A stretch of 64,000 nt of DNA from Anabaena subtropica FACHB-260 (GTDB lineage Bacteria > Cyanobacteriota > Cyanobacteriia > Cyanobacteriales > Nostocaceae). Location: contig NZ_JACJRF010000017.1 of NCBI RefSeq assembly GCF_014697105.1, positions 1 through 64,000 on the forward strand, written 5' to 3'. Of this stretch, positions 14,938 through 22,119 are shown one piece after another (the first letter of the stretch is position 1; each line of letters opens with the position of its first letter). The position numbers were made by a program, and so were the translations under genes. The notes below the pieces were generated by a model. It was given only the letters and a program-made list of their open reading frames with translations, was not told the DNA's origin and made no database searches.

Positions 14938-15681
14938 GTGATTGTGAATGCGACACCGACTGGATGGGAAGTTATTTATCACCGTTCCCATGCTTTATTA
15001 GCAGCTCAATTAGCGGGACAATGGAAACGCAAAAACTCTCCTGCCAGAATATACGAAACCCTAGCCGCAATCTCTCATCATGATGATTTAGAAAAAGAAT
15101 GGGAAGAAGATAATCTGACTGAAGCTGGCACGCCTAAAGATTTTATGATGGCTGACGATACTATAAATTCAGATACTTCATGCCAAAAACTAGCTAATCT
15201 AGCCAATAATGCTCGTTATCGAGGACGGTGGGTAGCTATGTTAATTTCTATGCACATTAGCCGTTTGAATGAGTCAAAACGGGGTCAGGATAGCGGATTC
15301 GACAAATTTTTAGATGAACAATTGCAAAACCAACAACGTTACCGTGAAGAACTAGGTATAAAAAAAGATGAAGTAGATGCAGCTTATGCGTTCATGCAGT
15401 GGTGCGATCGCTTATCTCTCATTTTATGTCAGCAAGAGTTACCTGCTGACGAACGGTTTTTAGAAATTAGTCAGGGCCCTGATGGTCAACGCTATGACAT
15501 CATGCAACGTAGCGATAACTTAATCACTGTCCAACCTTGGCCTTTTGAAGATGAGAACTTTACCGTCAATGTGGAAGCTTGTGACTTAAATCAAGTCAAA
15601 TTTGCCAGTAACGCTGAATTAACTCAAGCACTGCAAACAGCCCCAATTAAGGTACTAGAGTGGACTTTCGTCAAAAGCTAA
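14938..15681 (+). CDS. DUF3891 family protein
   Basis: 247 aa beginning at GTG 14938, with GGGAG upstream. Conserved-looking features are YHRSHALLAAQLAGQW near residues 14-30, AAISHHDDLEKEWEED near 44-60, and WCDRLSLILCQQELP near 151-165. The paired histidines and acidic residues (SHHDD) look like an HD-type metal site, so a hydrolase is possible, but the family is uncharacterised. The stop codon lies in the T-tail of the convergent small RNA copy A, so one hairpin may end both transcripts. Confidence 0.85.
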   Translation: MIVNATPTGWEVIYHRSHALLAAQLAGQWKRKNSPARIYETLAAISHHDDLEKEWEEDNLTEAGTPKDFMMADDTINSDTSCQKLANLANNARYRGRWVAMLISMHISRLNESKRGQDSGFDKFLDEQLQNQQRYREELGIKKDEVDAAYAFMQWCDRLSLILCQQELPADERFLEISQGPDGQRYDIMQRSDNLITVQPWPFEDENFTVNVEACDLNQVKFASNAELTQALQTAPIKVLEWTFVKS

Positions 15682-15750
15682 AAAGCACCTGGGAGTGTTG
15701 CCGTGTTTCCACCCCAGATGCTTTTAATTTTCAACTTGCTCCTCACACAC
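15680..15750 (-). ncRNA. Small RNA copy A, Yfr2-like (tandem array)
   Basis: The minus-strand RNA would start near 15750 with GTGTGTGAGGAGCAAGTT. It ends in a strong hairpin (15681-15725) with AAAAGCAUCUGGGG / CCCAGGUGCUUUU arms and a run of U. The loop carries UGGAAACA, the hallmark I associate with the Yfr2 family. The same unit recurs at 15841, 16005 and 20131 with conserved hairpin, loop and 5' sequence but diverged spacers, as expected for RNA genes under selection. No protein frame is conserved across copies. The Yfr2 identity is from memory; that these are small RNA genes is well supported by copy comparison. Confidence 0.72.
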
Positions 15751-15756
15751 AATCAG

Positions 15757-15815
15757 AGAATATCACTTGTTATTTTGCTAGGCAAGTATATTGTGTGACA
15801 CTTTCTTAACTGCAC
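15757..15815 (-). promoter_or_regulatory. Promoter module of small RNA copy A
   Basis: The -10 box TATTCT (15757-15762) ends 6 nt before the predicted RNA start. A 21-nt box at 15795-15815 matches those of copies B and D, separated from the -10 by exactly 32 nt. Confidence 0.65.
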
Positions 15816-15840
15816 AGAAAGTACTGGAATATCCTCAATC

Positions 15841-15911
15841 AAAAAGCGCCCGGGAGTGTGGCCGTGTTTCCACCCCAGGCGCTTTTTATTCTTAACTTGC
15901 TCCTCACACAC
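15841..15911 (-). ncRNA. Small RNA copy B, Yfr2-like (tandem array)
   Basis: Same architecture as copy A: predicted 5' end near 15911 (GTGTGTGAGGAGCAAGTT), then the terminal hairpin with GCGCCUGGGG / CCCGGGCGC arms, a UGGAAACA loop and a U run ending at 15841. The arms differ from copy A at several paired positions, with pairing kept on both sides (compensatory change), which supports RNA function. Unit spacing from copy A is about 160 bp. Confidence 0.75.
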
Positions 15912-15917
15912 AAGTAA

Positions 15918-15976
15918 AACATAACACTTATTGTTCTAAAAAGTAAATCTATCTTGTGACAGTTTGCTATCTGCAC
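15918..15976 (-). promoter_or_regulatory. Promoter module of small RNA copy B
   Basis: The -10 box TATGTT (15918-15923) ends 6 nt before the RNA start. The 21-nt upstream box is at 15956-15976, again exactly 32 nt from the -10. Confidence 0.65.
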
Positions 15977-16004
15977 AAAATAGCAGTATTTTTCCGGAAT
16001 CATG

Positions 16005-16075
16005 AAAAAACGCCTGGGAGTGTGGCCGTGTTTCCACCCCAGGCGCTTTTTATTTTTAACTTGCTCCTCACACAC
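16005..16075 (-). ncRNA. Small RNA copy C, Yfr2-like (tandem array)
   Basis: Third unit of the array. The predicted start is near 16075 with the same GTGTGTGAGGAGCAAGTT 5' sequence. The hairpin (about 16005-16052) has GCGCCUGGGG / CUCCCAGGCG arms and the UGGAAACA loop. A 78-codon frame that crosses copies B and C on this strand is only the repeat read twice and is not called. Beyond it, 16141-16505 holds no feature I can support other than the histidine kinase leader. Confidence 0.75.
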
Positions 16076-16081
16076 AAATAG

Positions 16082-16140
16082 AAGTTATCACCTATTTTTT
16101 GAGAAGGCAAGTATAAGGTGTAACGCTTTATGAATTCTTT
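16082..16140 (-). promoter_or_regulatory. Promoter module of small RNA copy C (box decayed)
   Basis: The -10 box TAACTT (16082-16087) sits 6 nt from the RNA start. The position expected for the 21-nt box (16120-16140) shows only partial similarity to the other three, so this copy may be regulated differently or be weaker. Confidence 0.5.
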
Positions 16141-16505
16141 AAATAAAGTCTCAAAATCAGTACTAATTTATTAAAGATTCTTAATAAACCTAGTCTATCT
16201 GTTTGCTGATTGAGTTGCTTCTATCGGCTATGTGTGAATCCAACAAAGCTATAATTTGAAAGGCAACAGTAACCCAACGGCCCGAAAAATTCTACTTCAG
16301 GGATGAGGTTGTTCCTATGAACTATGTACACTAACAAGTTATGAAAGTGGATTATTTTCCCTCTCTCCACTCTCTCTCCCCTACTCTTTACTTTAAAGTC
16401 AAACATTTATACTTGCTAGTGTGAGATATATCTCAAGATTGTTACCTATAGTAGAAGAACACTTTATGTCTGATAAACAGGTTACTGCCAGGGATTAAAT
16501 GCAGT

Positions 16506-19500
16506 ATGTTAAATATCCAGCGCTCTCATTTGCAGCGTTCCTGTATCTCTATTGTGTCAGTATTATTGGCGCTGTTACTAGGCTTATTGCTGGAAAGAGG
16601 TTTAAAAGTAGAGATTTCGCCACTTTTTTTTGCATCGGTAGTCTTTAGTAGCTGGTACGGTGGATTGGCTCCGGGTTTATTCGCTGCATTCTTGGCTATT
16701 TTAGTGAAAAATTATTTCTTCGTTGTACCGTTCTACTCACTAGGACTAAGCCAATGGAGTGACATATTAAATTTAATCGTCTTTGCCTCAGTAGCACTAT
16801 TAATTAGTTCATTGAATTCGCAAATACGTGCTGCCAGGCAAGTATCTGAGGCAAAGCTAGCAAAGTTGAGGGTGAGCCATCACCAGTTGTTAGAGACAGC
16901 CCATGAAGGTATTTGGATATTTGACCATGAAGGAAAGACAGAATATGTCAATCCTCAGTTAGCCAAAATGCTTGGTTACAGTATTGAACAAATAGGTGAT
17001 CGCTCAATTTTTGATTTCATTGCGCCTCAACAACGCCTGGAAATTGAGCAATGGCTAAAGCAACAGCAAAGGCACCATCAACAAACTAAACAGCAGTTTG
17101 ACTTATGTTTACAACGCCATGATGGATCACCACTTTGGGTAATTATTTCCCTGAGTTCAATACTAGATCAGCACAGCCAATTCTCTGATGTAATGGGCTA
17201 CACCCCACCGGATGTCATGGCTATGCTCACAGATATCACCGAGCGTAAGCAGTCGGAGGAGACTTTAGCACAGGAACAAGCAAAACGTGACCTCGAAGGC
17301 CAACGCCTGCGTGCCATCCTGGATATTCTCCCGATGGGAGTATTAATTGCTGATGCTAAAGGAAAGCTTTTAGAGATTAATCCGGGCGTGAAAGCAATTT
17401 GGGGAGAAGAGGCCCCATTGCTCGACAACACCAGTCAATATCATGAATATAAAGGATGGTGGGCAGATACAGGCAAACCTTTGGCAGCCAAAGAATGGAC
17501 ACTAGCCCGTACCCTAGCTACGGGTGAGGCCATAATTGGGGAAGAGATTGATATTGAAACATTTGATGGGCAGAGAAAAACCATCCTCAATTTTGCTATA
17601 CCCATTTGTGATGAAACCGGAGCGATACTTAATGTAGTAGTTGTTAATGTAGATATTACTGAGCGCAAACGGGTAGAAGCAGCATTACGGCAAAGTGAAG
17701 CACTAGCCAAAGCACGAGCAGAAGAACTGGAAACTATCATGGAAACTGTGCCGGCGGCTGTCTGGATTGCTCATGATCCCCAATGCCATTTCATGACTGT
17801 TAACAAAACTGCTTATGAAATGATGCGGATGTCACCAGGATCACCGATGACAGCAACTCCTGCCAGTGGAGAATATCCCTTTCCATTTAAAATTCAAAAA
17901 AATGGTCAAGATATTCCCCTGAATGAGTTGGCAATGCAACAAGCCGGTCTGACTGGGCAAGAAGTAGAAGCAGAATTTGAATTTGTTTTTAGCAAAGAGG
18001 ATGTACGATACATTTACGGTAAGTCTACTCCTGTACGTGATACAGATGGTAATGTCCGAGGCGTAATTGGTGCTTTTCTCGATGTCACTGATCGCCAGCA
18101 AGCAGAAGCAGCGTTACAGGAAAGTGAAGCTCGACTAAAACAGTTATTACAATCGAGTATTATTGGCATTATTGAGGCAGATTCAGAACGAATTAATTTT
18201 GCTAACGATGCCTTCCTCGAAATTGTTGGGTACACCCATGAAGACTTGCTCACAGGAAAGCTTTGTTGGCAAGACATGACCCCACCAGAGTATAGTGAAC
18301 TGGATCAAGCCAAGGTAGAGGAAGTATTAAATTCTGGATTCTGCACTCCCTTTGAGAAGGAATATATCCGTAAAGACGGCTCTCGTGTTCCCATTTTATT
18401 GGGTGCTGCTCGATTAAGTGTCAGCCCATTAAGATGGGTCTGCTTTATTCTAGATTTAACAGAACGCAAACAAGCAGAAGCCGCACTACAACAAAGCGAA
18501 TTGATGTTTCGCACACTAGCAAACACAATGCCGCAAATGTTTTGGATTACACAGCCTAATGGCTACCATGAGTATTTCAATCAACGTTGGTATGACTATA
18601 CAGGAATGACATTAGAGCAAGCCCAAGGCGAAGGATGGCAAAACATTCTCCATACTAATGATGTGCAAGCCACGATGGCACATTGGCAAGATTGTGTCCA
18701 GACTGGCAAAAATTATGATATCGAGTGTCGTTTGCGTCGTGCGGCTGATGGAGAATACCGTTGGCATTTAGCCAGAGCCTTCCCATTAAGACATGACAAT
18801 GGTCAAATATTAAAATGGTTTGGTTCTTGCACAGACATTCATGACCAGAAGTTAGCTATTGAGGAACGCGCCCAGGCTTGGGAACAGGAACGTGCAGCCC
18901 GGATAGAATTAGAACAAGCCAACCGAATGAAAGATGATTTTCTAGCAATAGTTTCTCATGAGTTGCGATCGCCACTTAATCCCATTCTCGGCTGGGCAAA
19001 ACTCCTCAAGAGTCACAAGTTAGATACATTCAAAACTCATCAAGCCCTAGAAGTTATCGAACGCAATGCCAAATTACAAGCGCGATTAATAGACGATTTA
19101 CTAGACGTTTCGCGGATTTTGCGTGGTAAGTTGAGTTTGAATGTCTGTACAGTTGATTTGGCAAATACTGTCGAATCTGCATTAGAAACTGTGCGTCTAA
19201 CGGCTGAGGGTAAATCAATTCACATAGAAACTGAGTTGACTTCCAATGTGTGCCGAGTAGAAGGCGACCCCAACCGTTTACAGCAGGTGGTGTGGAATTT
19301 GCTGAGTAATGCTGTAAAATTTACACCCGATGGAGGGCGAATAGAAGTTAAGTTAGAACGAATTGGTTCTTTAGCGCAAATTCAAGTCAGCGATACAGGA
19401 AAAGGTATTAGTCTTGACTTTCTCCCTTATGTGTTTGAACGCTTCCGCCAAGCCGATGAGGTGACAACCAGAAAATTTGGTGGATTGGGGTTAGGGTTAG

Positions 19501-20036
19501 CGATAGTCCGTCATCTTGTAGAACTCCACGGTGGTTCTGTGCAGGTAACAAGCCCAGGAGAAGGATTAGGCACAACATTTACTGTCAATCTGCCCCTGAT
19601 TGTGGCTTCTCAAGTATACGACGAGTATTTTGCCCCTGACACTACCCCAAATCTACAAGGACTGCGGATAGTAGTGGTAGATGATGATCCTGATACTTTA
19701 GAATTGCTAAGTTTTATTTTGGAACAGTATGGAGTGGAAGTTAAGGCAGTAAATTCAGCTAATGAAGCATTGCAAGCGATCGCTCAAACCAAACCAGATT
19801 TACTATTAAGTGATATTGGGATGCCAGAAGTCGATGGCTATATGCTGATTCAGCAAGTCAGAGCGATGGAAGTAGCATCAGACACAAAGTTACCAGCGAT
19901 CGCCCTCACCGCATTTGCAGGGGAAACTAACTTTCAAAAAATTATTTCTGCTGGCTTTCAAAGGCATCTCACCAAGCCTGTAGAACCATTAGAATTGGCA
20001 ACAGTTATAGCTAATTTGATTTACAGTAACTCGTGA
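16506..20036 (+). CDS. Hybrid sensor histidine kinase (DUF4118, five PAS, HisKA, HATPase, REC)
   Basis: A 1176-aa membrane-anchored phosphorelay kinase. Residues about 10-105 form a KdpD-like DUF4118 membrane domain (LLALLLGLLLERG, FASVVFSSWYGGLAPGLF). PAS/PAC units start near 125, 270, 408, 540 and 665. The dimerisation and phosphoacceptor box is FLAIVSHELRSPLNPI with H near 818. ATPase N, G1 and G2 boxes follow (NLLSNAVKFTPDGG, DTGKGISLDF, GGLGLGLAIV). A C-terminal receiver has DDD near 1060 and phosphoacceptor D near 1103 in LLLSDIGMPEVDGY. The ligand is unknown. It lies between the small RNA array and copy D, so regulatory ties to those RNAs are possible but unproven. Confidence 0.95.
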   Translation: MLNIQRSHLQRSCISIVSVLLALLLGLLLERGLKVEISPLFFASVVFSSWYGGLAPGLFAAFLAILVKNYFFVVPFYSLGLSQWSDILNLIVFASVALLISSLNSQIRAARQVSEAKLAKLRVSHHQLLETAHEGIWIFDHEGKTEYVNPQLAKMLGYSIEQIGDRSIFDFIAPQQRLEIEQWLKQQQRHHQQTKQQFDLCLQRHDGSPLWVIISLSSILDQHSQFSDVMGYTPPDVMAMLTDITERKQSEETLAQEQAKRDLEGQRLRAILDILPMGVLIADAKGKLLEINPGVKAIWGEEAPLLDNTSQYHEYKGWWADTGKPLAAKEWTLARTLATGEAIIGEEIDIETFDGQRKTILNFAIPICDETGAILNVVVVNVDITERKRVEAALRQSEALAKARAEELETIMETVPAAVWIAHDPQCHFMTVNKTAYEMMRMSPGSPMTATPASGEYPFPFKIQKNGQDIPLNELAMQQAGLTGQEVEAEFEFVFSKEDVRYIYGKSTPVRDTDGNVRGVIGAFLDVTDRQQAEAALQESEARLKQLLQSSIIGIIEADSERINFANDAFLEIVGYTHEDLLTGKLCWQDMTPPEYSELDQAKVEEVLNSGFCTPFEKEYIRKDGSRVPILLGAARLSVSPLRWVCFILDLTERKQAEAALQQSELMFRTLANTMPQMFWITQPNGYHEYFNQRWYDYTGMTLEQAQGEGWQNILHTNDVQATMAHWQDCVQTGKNYDIECRLRRAADGEYRWHLARAFPLRHDNGQILKWFGSCTDIHDQKLAIEERAQAWEQERAARIELEQANRMKDDFLAIVSHELRSPLNPILGWAKLLKSHKLDTFKTHQALEVIERNAKLQARLIDDLLDVSRILRGKLSLNVCTVDLANTVESALETVRLTAEGKSIHIETELTSNVCRVEGDPNRLQQVVWNLLSNAVKFTPDGGRIEVKLERIGSLAQIQVSDTGKGISLDFLPYVFERFRQADEVTTRKFGGLGLGLAIVRHLVELHGGSVQVTSPGEGLGTTFTVNLPLIVASQVYDEYFAPDTTPNLQGLRIVVVDDDPDTLELLSFILEQYGVEVKAVNSANEALQAIAQTKPDLLLSDIGMPEVDGYMLIQQVRAMEVASDTKLPAIALTAFAGETNFQKIISAGFQRHLTKPVEPLELATVIANLIYSNS

Positions 20037-20046
20037 TTTTTATATT

Positions 20047-20109
20047 GAGTAATGAGTAAGGAGTAAGGAGTAATGAGTAATGAGTAATGAGTAATGAGTA
20101 ATGAGTAAT
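20047..20109. repeat. Nine-unit GAGTAAT heptamer repeat
   Basis: Nine head-to-tail 7-mers, seven GAGTAAT and two GAGTAAG, lie just after the histidine kinase stop. The same family occurs at 23184-23295. Confidence 0.9.
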
Positions 20110-20130
20110 AGAATCAATTTTTAGATAATT

Positions 20131-20200
20131 AAAAAGCGCTCAGAAGTGTTACCGTGTTTCCACTCTAAGCGCTCTTAAATTTCAACTTGCTCCTCACACT
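20131..20200 (-). ncRNA. Small RNA copy D, Yfr2-like (solitary)
   Basis: Fourth copy of the unit found at 15.7-16.1 kb, on the same strand, 4.1 kb away and beyond the histidine kinase gene. The predicted 5' end is near 20200 (GAGTGTGAGGAGCAAGTT). The hairpin has GAGCGCUUAGAG / CUUCUGAGCGCUUUUU arms and the UGGAAACA loop. Arm bases differ from the array copies at both sides of the stem while pairing is largely kept. It lies just downstream of purH on the same strand, but has its own promoter module. Confidence 0.72.
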
Positions 20201-20205
20201 CCTAG

Positions 20206-20264
20206 AGTGTAACACTGCGTTGAAACCAAAGCTGATGTTATCAGTGACACTTTGCTAACTGCAC
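20206..20264 (-). promoter_or_regulatory. Promoter module of small RNA copy D
   Basis: The -10 box TACACT (20206-20211) and a 21-nt box (20244-20264) are separated by 32 nt, identical to copies A and B. The box agrees with GTGCAGNTANNAAANTGTCA plus a final C. Confidence 0.65.
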
Positions 20265-20299
20265 CAATGTGAGGAGGAAGTTTTGTATTTTCTCCTGCC

Positions 20300-21838
20300 T
20301 TAGTGTAAAAAGTGACGCACGCCAGTTAACACCATGAGTAAACCCAGTTCGTTCGCAGCTTTGATAGAATCTTGATCCCGCAGACTTCCTCCTGGTTGGA
20401 CAATAGCGGTAATACCGGCGGCGGCGGCGGTTCTGACGGAATCATCGAAGGGGAAAAATCCATCGCTGGCGAGGATTGCACCTTTAGCTTTGTCTCCTGC
20501 TTGTTCTAAGGCGATTTTGGTGGAACCGACGCGGTTCATTTGTCCTGCACCTACACCTAGAGTAGTGCGATCACTTGTGATGACAATGGCATTAGATTTA
20601 ACGTGTTTGCAGACTTTCCAAGCAAACAGCAATTCTGCTAATTCTTCAGCAGTAGGCTGGCGATCGCTAACCACTTTCCATGTACTCGGATCCGCAACCA
20701 TATCATCCGCAGCTTGCACAAGAAAACCGCCAGCAATCTGTTTGATTAAGGTTTTCGAACCACTACCCAAATCTGCTAAAGTTAATATCCGCACATTAGA
20801 TTTCTTTGCCAGAATTTTTTGTGCTTCTTCATCACAATCAGGCGCAACCACACATTCTAAAAATGTCTTCGTTAACTCGCTGGCTGTAAGTGCATCGATG
20901 GGACGGTTCAGGGCGACGATACCCCCAAAAGCAGAAGTAGAATCAGCATTAAACGCCTTTTGATAGGCTTCAACAATGGTATCTCCCAAGGCTGTACCGC
21001 AAGGATTGGTATGTTTAATAATGGTTGCGGCTGGTGTATCGGTAAATTCGCCAATAATTCGACGGGCTGCTTCTAAATCAACCAAGTTATTGTAGCTGAG
21101 TTCTTTACCTTGTAGTTTCTTGGCTGCTGCCCATCCTGTTGGGGTAGTCCCTGTTTGATACCAAGCTGCTGGTTGATGGGGATTTTCACCGTAACGCAGA
21201 GATTGTAATTGTGTACCACCTAGACTGTGTTGTTGGGGTAGGGATTCTGGAGATTGTTGACTGAGGTAGGAAGCGATCGCCTGATCATAATTAGCCGTAT
21301 GTAAAAATCCTTTTAAAGCGGCTTTTTGGCGAAATTCTAAAGACGCTTCCCCATTATTTTGGTGTAACTCTTGCAGATATTCATCATACTGTGCTGGGTC
21401 ACACAACACCGTCAAATGAGCAAAATTCTTTGATGATGCGCGTAACATCGCCGGGCCGCCGATATCAATCTGTTCCACAGCTTCCGCTAATGTCACCCCT
21501 GGTTTAGCGATCGTAGACTCAAACGGATAGAGATTTACCACCACCAAATCAATCGGGCGAATTTGGTTACTTTCTAAATCTGCAACATCACTAGCTACAT
21601 CCCGCCTCGCCAAAATCCCACCATGAATCCGGGGATGTAAGGTTTTGACTCGTCCGCCTAAAATTTCTGGGGAACCCGTGTAATCTGCAACCTTCGTCAC
21701 AGGTAAACCCGCATCCTTGAGGGCTTGAGCTGTTCCCCCACTGCTGATTAAATCAAACTCAAATTCTTCCACCAAGCGACGAGCTAAGTCAATTAAACCA
21801 GTTTTGTTAGATACACTCAGCAGTGCTAGACGCGCCAT
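20300..21838 (-). CDS. purH: Bifunctional AICAR transformylase / IMP cyclohydrolase PurH
   Basis: 512-aa enzyme for the last two steps of de novo purine synthesis. The N-terminal MGS-like cyclohydrolase domain (about residues 1-145) begins MARLALLSVSNKTGL and carries LHPRIHGGILARRD. The AICAR transformylase domain follows, with TIIKHTNPCGTA, SAFGGIVALNRPID and DGFFPFDDSVR near the end. The ATG at 21838 is chosen because GAGGA precedes it and it matches the family start; an in-frame start at 21892 adds 18 unrelated residues. Single-gene unit; small RNA copy D lies after its 3' end. Confidence 0.96.
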   Translation of the reverse strand: MARLALLSVSNKTGLIDLARRLVEEFEFDLISSGGTAQALKDAGLPVTKVADYTGSPEILGGRVKTLHPRIHGGILARRDVASDVADLESNQIRPIDLVVVNLYPFESTIAKPGVTLAEAVEQIDIGGPAMLRASSKNFAHLTVLCDPAQYDEYLQELHQNNGEASLEFRQKAALKGFLHTANYDQAIASYLSQQSPESLPQQHSLGGTQLQSLRYGENPHQPAAWYQTGTTPTGWAAAKKLQGKELSYNNLVDLEAARRIIGEFTDTPAATIIKHTNPCGTALGDTIVEAYQKAFNADSTSAFGGIVALNRPIDALTASELTKTFLECVVAPDCDEEAQKILAKKSNVRILTLADLGSGSKTLIKQIAGGFLVQAADDMVADPSTWKVVSDRQPTAEELAELLFAWKVCKHVKSNAIVITSDRTTLGVGAGQMNRVGSTKIALEQAGDKAKGAILASDGFFPFDDSVRTAAAAGITAIVQPGGSLRDQDSIKAANELGLLMVLTGVRHFLH

Positions 21839-22119
21839 GTCTCGATTCCTCAGATGCGAAAGACCCCAATTTTCACATAACCCTTGGTTCACTTCAAGAC
21901 CATTGGGAATAACAGTTCAAAATTCAAAGAAGATACACTTAATTATCTCAGAACCAACAAATTATCATAAGAAAATCTCTGCGTACCTCAGCGCTACTCT
22001 GCGTTAAAAAGGATAAAATCTGGCGCAGCTTTACAAAGAAACCGATAATACCATACTGCCTTGAGATGGTATCTGGTTTTCTTAATGGCAAATTGCGAAT
22101 TGGTATTAGACTGTGTTGG

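Follow-up and report, generated by a model that had tools for sequence, protein, structure and literature searches.

A palindromic operator shared by a purH-linked Yfr2 array and a second, putative small RNA in Anabaena subtropica, with PlmA as its candidate reader

What governs a small RNA gene that a cyanobacterium keeps in several copies, and what might the copies accomplish? The question is raised by a 64,000-nt stretch of Anabaena subtropica FACHB-260 (contig NZ_JACJRF010000017.1, positions 1 to 64,000; hereafter the window), in which an earlier note, made from the sequence alone, had recognised four copies of a Yfr2-like small RNA (sRNA) around a hybrid histidine kinase gene and had proposed a regulatory locus with dose or condition-specific copies around this sensor. 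Our analysis favors, with a probability of roughly 0.55, an array of yfr2 genes beside purH that would be controlled by the GntR regulator PlmA and whose 5' segment GUGUGAGGAG would titrate the sRNA Yfr1, with the same operator standing also before a second RNA. Yfr2 and the four-copy set of Nostoc PCC 7120 are already known; the interest lies in the operator and in the second RNA that shares it.

The four copies are found on the minus strand where they had been placed, and all score above the gathering threshold of 41 bits of the Rfam covariance model RF01701 (Cyano-1): copy 1 (15677..15752) with 58.3 bits, copy 2 (15838..15913) with 52.2, copy 3 (16002..16077) with 52.8 and copy 4 (20130..20203) with 48.8. 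Cyano-1 is what we take to be Yfr2, given the common sequence, and the covariance matches bear out the proposal of a multicopy regulatory RNA locus of this family. The Cyano-2 model (RF01702), a further check that had been suggested, yields no match in this genome, a negative of little weight because 14 control genomes gave none either. The 5' ends of the tandem three lie 161 and 164 bp apart, and copy 4 is 4.1 kb off, beyond the kinase open reading frame (ORF). As had been described, all four share GTGTGAGGAGCAAGTT, a terminal hairpin whose loop contains GGAAACA, and a run of T, and the stem bases vary with pairing retained: in an alignment of 24 sequences (the four window copies and 20 chosen from relatives), 384 of 384 cells of the 3' stem are paired and 6 of its 16 pairs are altered on both sides, compared with a shuffled mean of 1.6, none of 500 shuffles as high, and at most 3 such pairs in slid-structure controls. 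A terminator scan, the rule of which admits loops of 3-8 only, found none at the four genes. Sub-threshold Rfam matches in the region (DLEU2_3, snoMBII-202, SNORD48) were taken as chance. A Yfr2 match is present in each of 119 genomes of the same family, 1 to 5 per genome, and in 138 of 291 genomes across the phylum (E up to 0.001). As an sRNA locus, the window array belongs to a known family and is unremarkable within it.

Upstream of the copies lies a palindromic element with the full form GTGMCASTT-N4-AASTGTCAC, the left arm of which is here often one base shorter. It ends 41-43 nt ahead of each window RNA; copies 1, 2 and 4 have it in a clear form, copy 3 in a degenerate one. On the minus strand, the core is matched exactly at copy 1 (CAGTTAAGAAAGTGTCAC, 15795..15812) and copy 4 (CAGTTAGCAAAGTGTCAC, 20244..20261), ending 43 and 41 nt before the respective RNA, and with one mismatch to CASTTNNNNAASTGTCAC at copy 2 (CAGATAGCAAACTGTCAC, 15956..15973), again ending 43 nt short of the RNA. 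In this genome, CAGTTNNNAAAGTGTCAC is present in exact form at two places, each ahead of a window yfr2 gene, and two further places, neither of them at yfr2, differ from it by one mismatch. When up to 3 mismatches are allowed, the 108+111 matches resemble the 95+119 of the reversed control, so that only near-exact matches are informative.

Is this element a property of the window alone? A side-by-side comparison of 88 unique upstreams reveals GTGCAGTT-NNN-AAAGTGTCAC ahead of many yfr2 copies. In a larger set of 130 unique upstreams, in which all collected loci of the family are pooled, some of them retrieved by the operator pattern and relatives not being independent, 95 reach 11 of 14 or more for CASTTNNNNAASTGTCAC, as do 2.3% of shuffles, and in 91 of these 95 the element ends 46-48 nt before GTGAGGAG. 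The core CASTTNNNNAASTGTCAC is present in 58 of 60 genomes of the family, with 155 matches versus 11 for the reversed control. The second RNA follows 48 of the 150 listed matches (in 47 genomes) at a distance of 43-45 nt, and a listed yfr2 follows 36 of them at 41-43 nt; both counts are lower bounds, as they cover 150 of the 155 matches and an incomplete yfr2 list. In other families of the order, judged by 24 upstreams hand-picked from the listed matches, about half from one family, 14 reach 13 of 18 or more, as do 1.1% of shuffles, and 12 of these reach 14 or more, as do 0.2%. Seven of the 24 carry a TTGACA-type promoter instead (L183, L185, L187, L190, L191, L197, L202), none of these scoring above 10 of 18, and three have neither; apparently, there are two classes of yfr2 promoter, operator-bearing and TTGACA-type. 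Searched for exactly in 120 genomes of the order, the palindrome gave 31 matches, spread over 27 genomes, and its reversed control 2. Thirty of these loci were fetched, two of which could not be oriented; in the 28 readable ones, Yfr2 follows in 10 and the second RNA in 1, as counted by eye and including loops written TCGAAACA. Our confidence that the operator is genuine, and that it is shared, is high.

The second, putative RNA is about 165 nt long, begins with GTGCAAGGAGTGATACC and ends in a hairpin with a T run. In this genome, our model R1 places it on the minus strand at C28:34736-34899 (L249:4737-4900), behind an operator that differs from the S-form pattern by one base. In the family, 57 of 60 genomes have an R1 match of at least 57 bits; a count of 58 takes in G026, whose matches are all weak and include one on a Yfr2 gene. 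Over the phylum, R1 matches in 26 of 194 genomes, of which 24 belong to the family and two, with weak matches, lie outside it. At least 13 of the 50 second-RNA upstreams were reached through the operator, a selection to bear in mind for the score of at least 13 of 14 in all 50; 13 of the 14 sequences behind R1 were reached in the same way. No Rfam family, RF01701 included, matches at the place of the RNA in six loci (E up to 0.5), and the sole two matches in these loci, PsrR1 in L223 and MIR6274 in L239, lie elsewhere. In L223, the PsrR1 sRNA (57.8 bits, L223:1939-2018) and the second RNA are about 480 nt apart. In the predicted structure, 94% of cells are paired, dropping to 32-45% on sliding, and 9 of 36 pairs are altered on both sides compared with a shuffled mean of 3.8; because a slide of +2 reaches 10, this latter measure is weak alone. 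A role of the second RNA as a Yfr1 partner is unsupported, as its longest complementary run is 8 nt and 190 of 2000 shuffles have one as long. The gene is convergent with a PlmA-like gene (C28:33534-34520), the 3' ends being about 215 nt apart, a linkage that we treat as incidental because the motif was not found in the plmA flanks retrieved from 22 of the 23 other genomes (the 23rd, L325, being left out). Judged from sequence, this candidate RNA appears to represent an undescribed and unrecorded family; our literature search, whose reach excluded supplements and most subscription papers, found no description of it, nor of the operator outside marine strains.

What could a titrator of Yfr1 look like in this genome? 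The Yfr2 segment GUGUGAGGAG is perfectly complementary over 10 nt to CUCCUCACAC in the one Yfr1 found here, and all five Yfr2 copies of the genome carry it, with 5-12 of 2000 shuffles showing a run as long. The fifth copy, at C28:188330-188397, is divergent and sub-threshold (37.4 bits), has a ACGAAACA loop and a TTGACG-type promoter, and is without the operator. The longest perfect run was used for this test in place of whole-length duplex energy, which is not significant. Pairing of this kind has precedents: in Nostoc PCC 7120, a four-repeat Yfr2, a Yfr1-Yfr2 electrophoretic mobility shift assay and a cited rise under nitrogen deprivation are reported (PMC6974561), and in marine picocyanobacteria Yfr1 interacts with Yfr2, the level of which rises in high light and when nitrogen is limiting (PMC6778093). 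As three of the window copies have the same operator at the same distance, together with the shared Yfr1-pairing segment, the array fits a role in dose better than one in separate conditions, the two options that had been left open. Copy 3, with its degenerate operator, could differ from the others.

The genome has four GntR-domain frames (488, 227, 520 and 342 aa), the last of which is a PlmA-like 328-aa ORF with relatives in 23 of 23 genomes tested. The segment of this protein around LPSTRxLAxQTGLHRNTISKVYR is nearly constant from this genome to our family f25, G207 being the most divergent. We read f25 as marine picocyanobacteria (Prochlorococcus, marine Synechococcus), and the family f1 as Nostocaceae, from named relatives and sequence. 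The half-site GTGMCAGTT, or its complement, occurs exactly within 120 nt of 16 of 24 f25 yfr2 genes, where 0.07 would be expected from shuffles, and of the 20 half-sites in the 24 loci (73,602 bases), 19 lie within these 120-nt stretches. Drawn from the top-scoring f25 matches, the 24 genes include 11 near-identical ones, and as 11 of the 16 with a half-site are close relatives, the half-sites represent few independent events. The near-constant DNA-binding segment and the shared half-site make PlmA the leading candidate for the reader of the operator here, a role that we assign to it with moderate confidence and on the grounds of sequence. In the marine strains, the GntR regulator PMM1637 binds yfr2 promoters bearing the element CGRE1, which is found nowhere else in MED4 (PMC6778093). 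According to the accessible text of a 2020 review, PlmA is present in all cyanobacteria and only there, with a regulon 'yet unknown', and that of a 2025 paper on PipX names no PlmA targets.

These elements suggest the following scenario. PlmA would bind the element as a dimer and activate the yfr2 copies, which by their number would raise the dose of the titrator; under nitrogen or light/redox stress, Yfr2 would rise, base-pair with Yfr1 by means of the free 5' segment and thereby lift Yfr1 repression. The titration step follows the Nostoc and Prochlorococcus papers, and the dependence on PlmA is our inference for this genome. As the same element precedes the second RNA, PlmA would then have two or more kinds of sRNA gene under its control. 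A wider version, which we consider to fall a little short of even odds, is a PlmA sRNA regulon with the half-site GTGMCAGTT across cyanobacteria, in which the operator of this family would drive both the purH-linked array and the second RNA, and would link Yfr1 titration and cell-wall remodelling to the nitrogen/energy signal of PII-PipX. With a near-fixed operator before two kinds of sRNA gene and few matches elsewhere, the role of PlmA is directly testable in a tractable Nostoc/Anabaena strain (null mutants of plmA have been reported for PCC 7120), and the operator could explain the response of Yfr2 to nitrogen status.

Where, then, does this leave the kinase? The array is bounded by DUF3891 on one side and purH on the other, with the kinase between copies 3 and 4. 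purH (AICAR transformylase/IMP cyclohydrolase; Pfam AICARFT_IMPCHas, 3.1e-123) occupies 20300..21892 on the minus strand, and the kinase (1176 aa; Pfam DUF4118, PAS, HisKA, HATPase and receiver) 16506..20036 on the plus strand. A short tandem repeat of gagtaat-like units lies just 3' of the kinase, beside the end of copy 4 (20047-20110), and a lone Yfr2-like 5' segment, GTGAGGAGGAAG, is found between copy 4 and purH on the plus strand (20269-20281), divergent from copy 4. For synteny we read 32 related loci, of which 16 are the only ones of 80 with a Yfr2 motif near DUF3891 (64 of the 80 being without one there) and 16 were hand-picked as arrays; the set is not a random sample. L213, L214 and L218, recognised by identical spacing and identity, are the same places as L075, L041 and L081, which leaves 29 distinct loci, L207 and L208 coming from one genome. 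purH is next to the array, in the same orientation, in 22 of the 29 and was not seen in the stretch read in seven, compared with a kinase in 6, so that purH rather than the kinase is the usual neighbour. That the array and the kinase form one unit, the kinase sensing a signal and controlling the flanking sRNA copies, is accordingly most improbable to us: their adjacency here and in the 6 loci is offset by 23 loci without a kinase in the stretch read, and the conserved upstream site is a GntR-type palindrome rather than a response-regulator site. On this synteny we rejected a kinase-linked function of the array, and with it the connection drawn in the earlier note; the kinase looks incidental, a bystander as far as synteny tells. 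In this family, by our inference Nostocaceae, the Yfr2 array is often fixed beside purH, which qualifies the published statement that yfr2 genes lie at 'unconserved loci' (PMC6778093). As a separate matter, the single Yfr1 of the genome (61.8 bits; at 3780 of L256, the stretch C72:31000-38000) is flanked, by eye, by GuaB-like and thioredoxin-like ORFs. IMP lies between the reactions of purH and guaB, so that the two antagonists, Yfr1 and the Yfr2 array, each adjoin a purine gene around IMP, which may be coincidence. Flanks of guaB and thioredoxin genes have been published for most yfr1 genes (PMC6778093).

Two other explanations concern the regulator and the target of the array. One retains the array and the operator and has a different dimeric factor bind here, with PlmA control of yfr2 restricted to marine picocyanobacteria. 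Binding by PlmA has indeed been published for marine yfr2 promoters only, in so far as the accessible text tells (PMC6778093), the half-sites are arranged differently in f25, and the seven TTGACA-type upstreams of other families lack the operator; yet the two groups have an identical 9-nt half-site, and have it at the gene of the same RNA, and so little varies in the DNA-binding segment of PlmA between them that we regard another factor as unlikely. We are similarly doubtful that Yfr2 mainly pairs with many mRNAs directly, perhaps via the GGAAACA loop, with Yfr1 titration secondary. Invariant in all 24 aligned sequences, this loop lies outside the Yfr1-pairing segment, and 404 enriched peaks, assigned to 302 mRNAs, co-purified with Yfr2 in Prochlorococcus (PMC6778093); set against this are the retention of the 10-nt complement even in the fifth copy with its other loop, and the reported binding of Yfr1 by Nostoc Yfr2 (PMC6974561). 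Titration of Yfr1 by a PlmA-controlled array has a number of observations to contend with as well. At copy 3, the operator (GAATTCATAAAGCGTTAC, 16120..16137, minus strand) is a relic only, recognised by eye at the same distance of 43 nt and missed by a pattern search with up to 2 mismatches, and a consensus scan detects no sigma-70 promoter at the four window genes. Beyond the window, 35 of the 130 family upstreams score below 11 of 14, 17 of the 28 readable palindrome loci of the order precede neither RNA, and 66 of the 150 listed operator matches are assigned to neither; some of these 66 are yfr2 genes missing from the list, and others could represent additional targets or chance matches. 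In whole-length Yfr1-Yfr2 duplex energy, shuffles do equally well, 59 to 130 of 200 being as good. The half-sites in f25 are single or arranged as AACTGKCAC-N-GTGMCAGTT, unlike the palindrome here, and the likeness to the marine promoters rests on the half-site and not on the letters of CGRE1. As to the regulator, no NCBIfam model reached its cut-off on the GntR protein of this genome, which we take to be PlmA, with PMM1637 as its counterpart, from similarity and reviews. Finally, a 2016 paper, in its accessible text, takes the abundance of PlmA in S. elongatus to suggest a large regulon.

How does the locus compare with known systems? Tandem sRNA repeats are also known in heterocystous cyanobacteria from NsiR1, an unrelated RNA with heterocyst-specific transcription. 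The Yfr2 copies of Synechocystis are dispersed, unlike the array beside purH described here. They resemble it as multicopy genes, and Yfr2a has a strong light-responsive promoter there (PMC2662882). The marine Yfr2 system under PMM1637 and CGRE1 likewise has a GntR regulator at its yfr2 promoters and has the half-site GTGMCAGTT in common with our locus, and it differs from the palindrome GTGMCASTT-N4-AASTGTCAC of our operator and, in part of f25, in the spacing to the RNA (PMC6778093). Closest is the Yfr2 of Nostoc sp. PCC 7120, the same RNA family in four copies, with Yfr1 binding and a nitrogen response reported there; relative to the accessible part of that account, the operator, the linkage to purH and the second RNA are described only here (PMC6974561).

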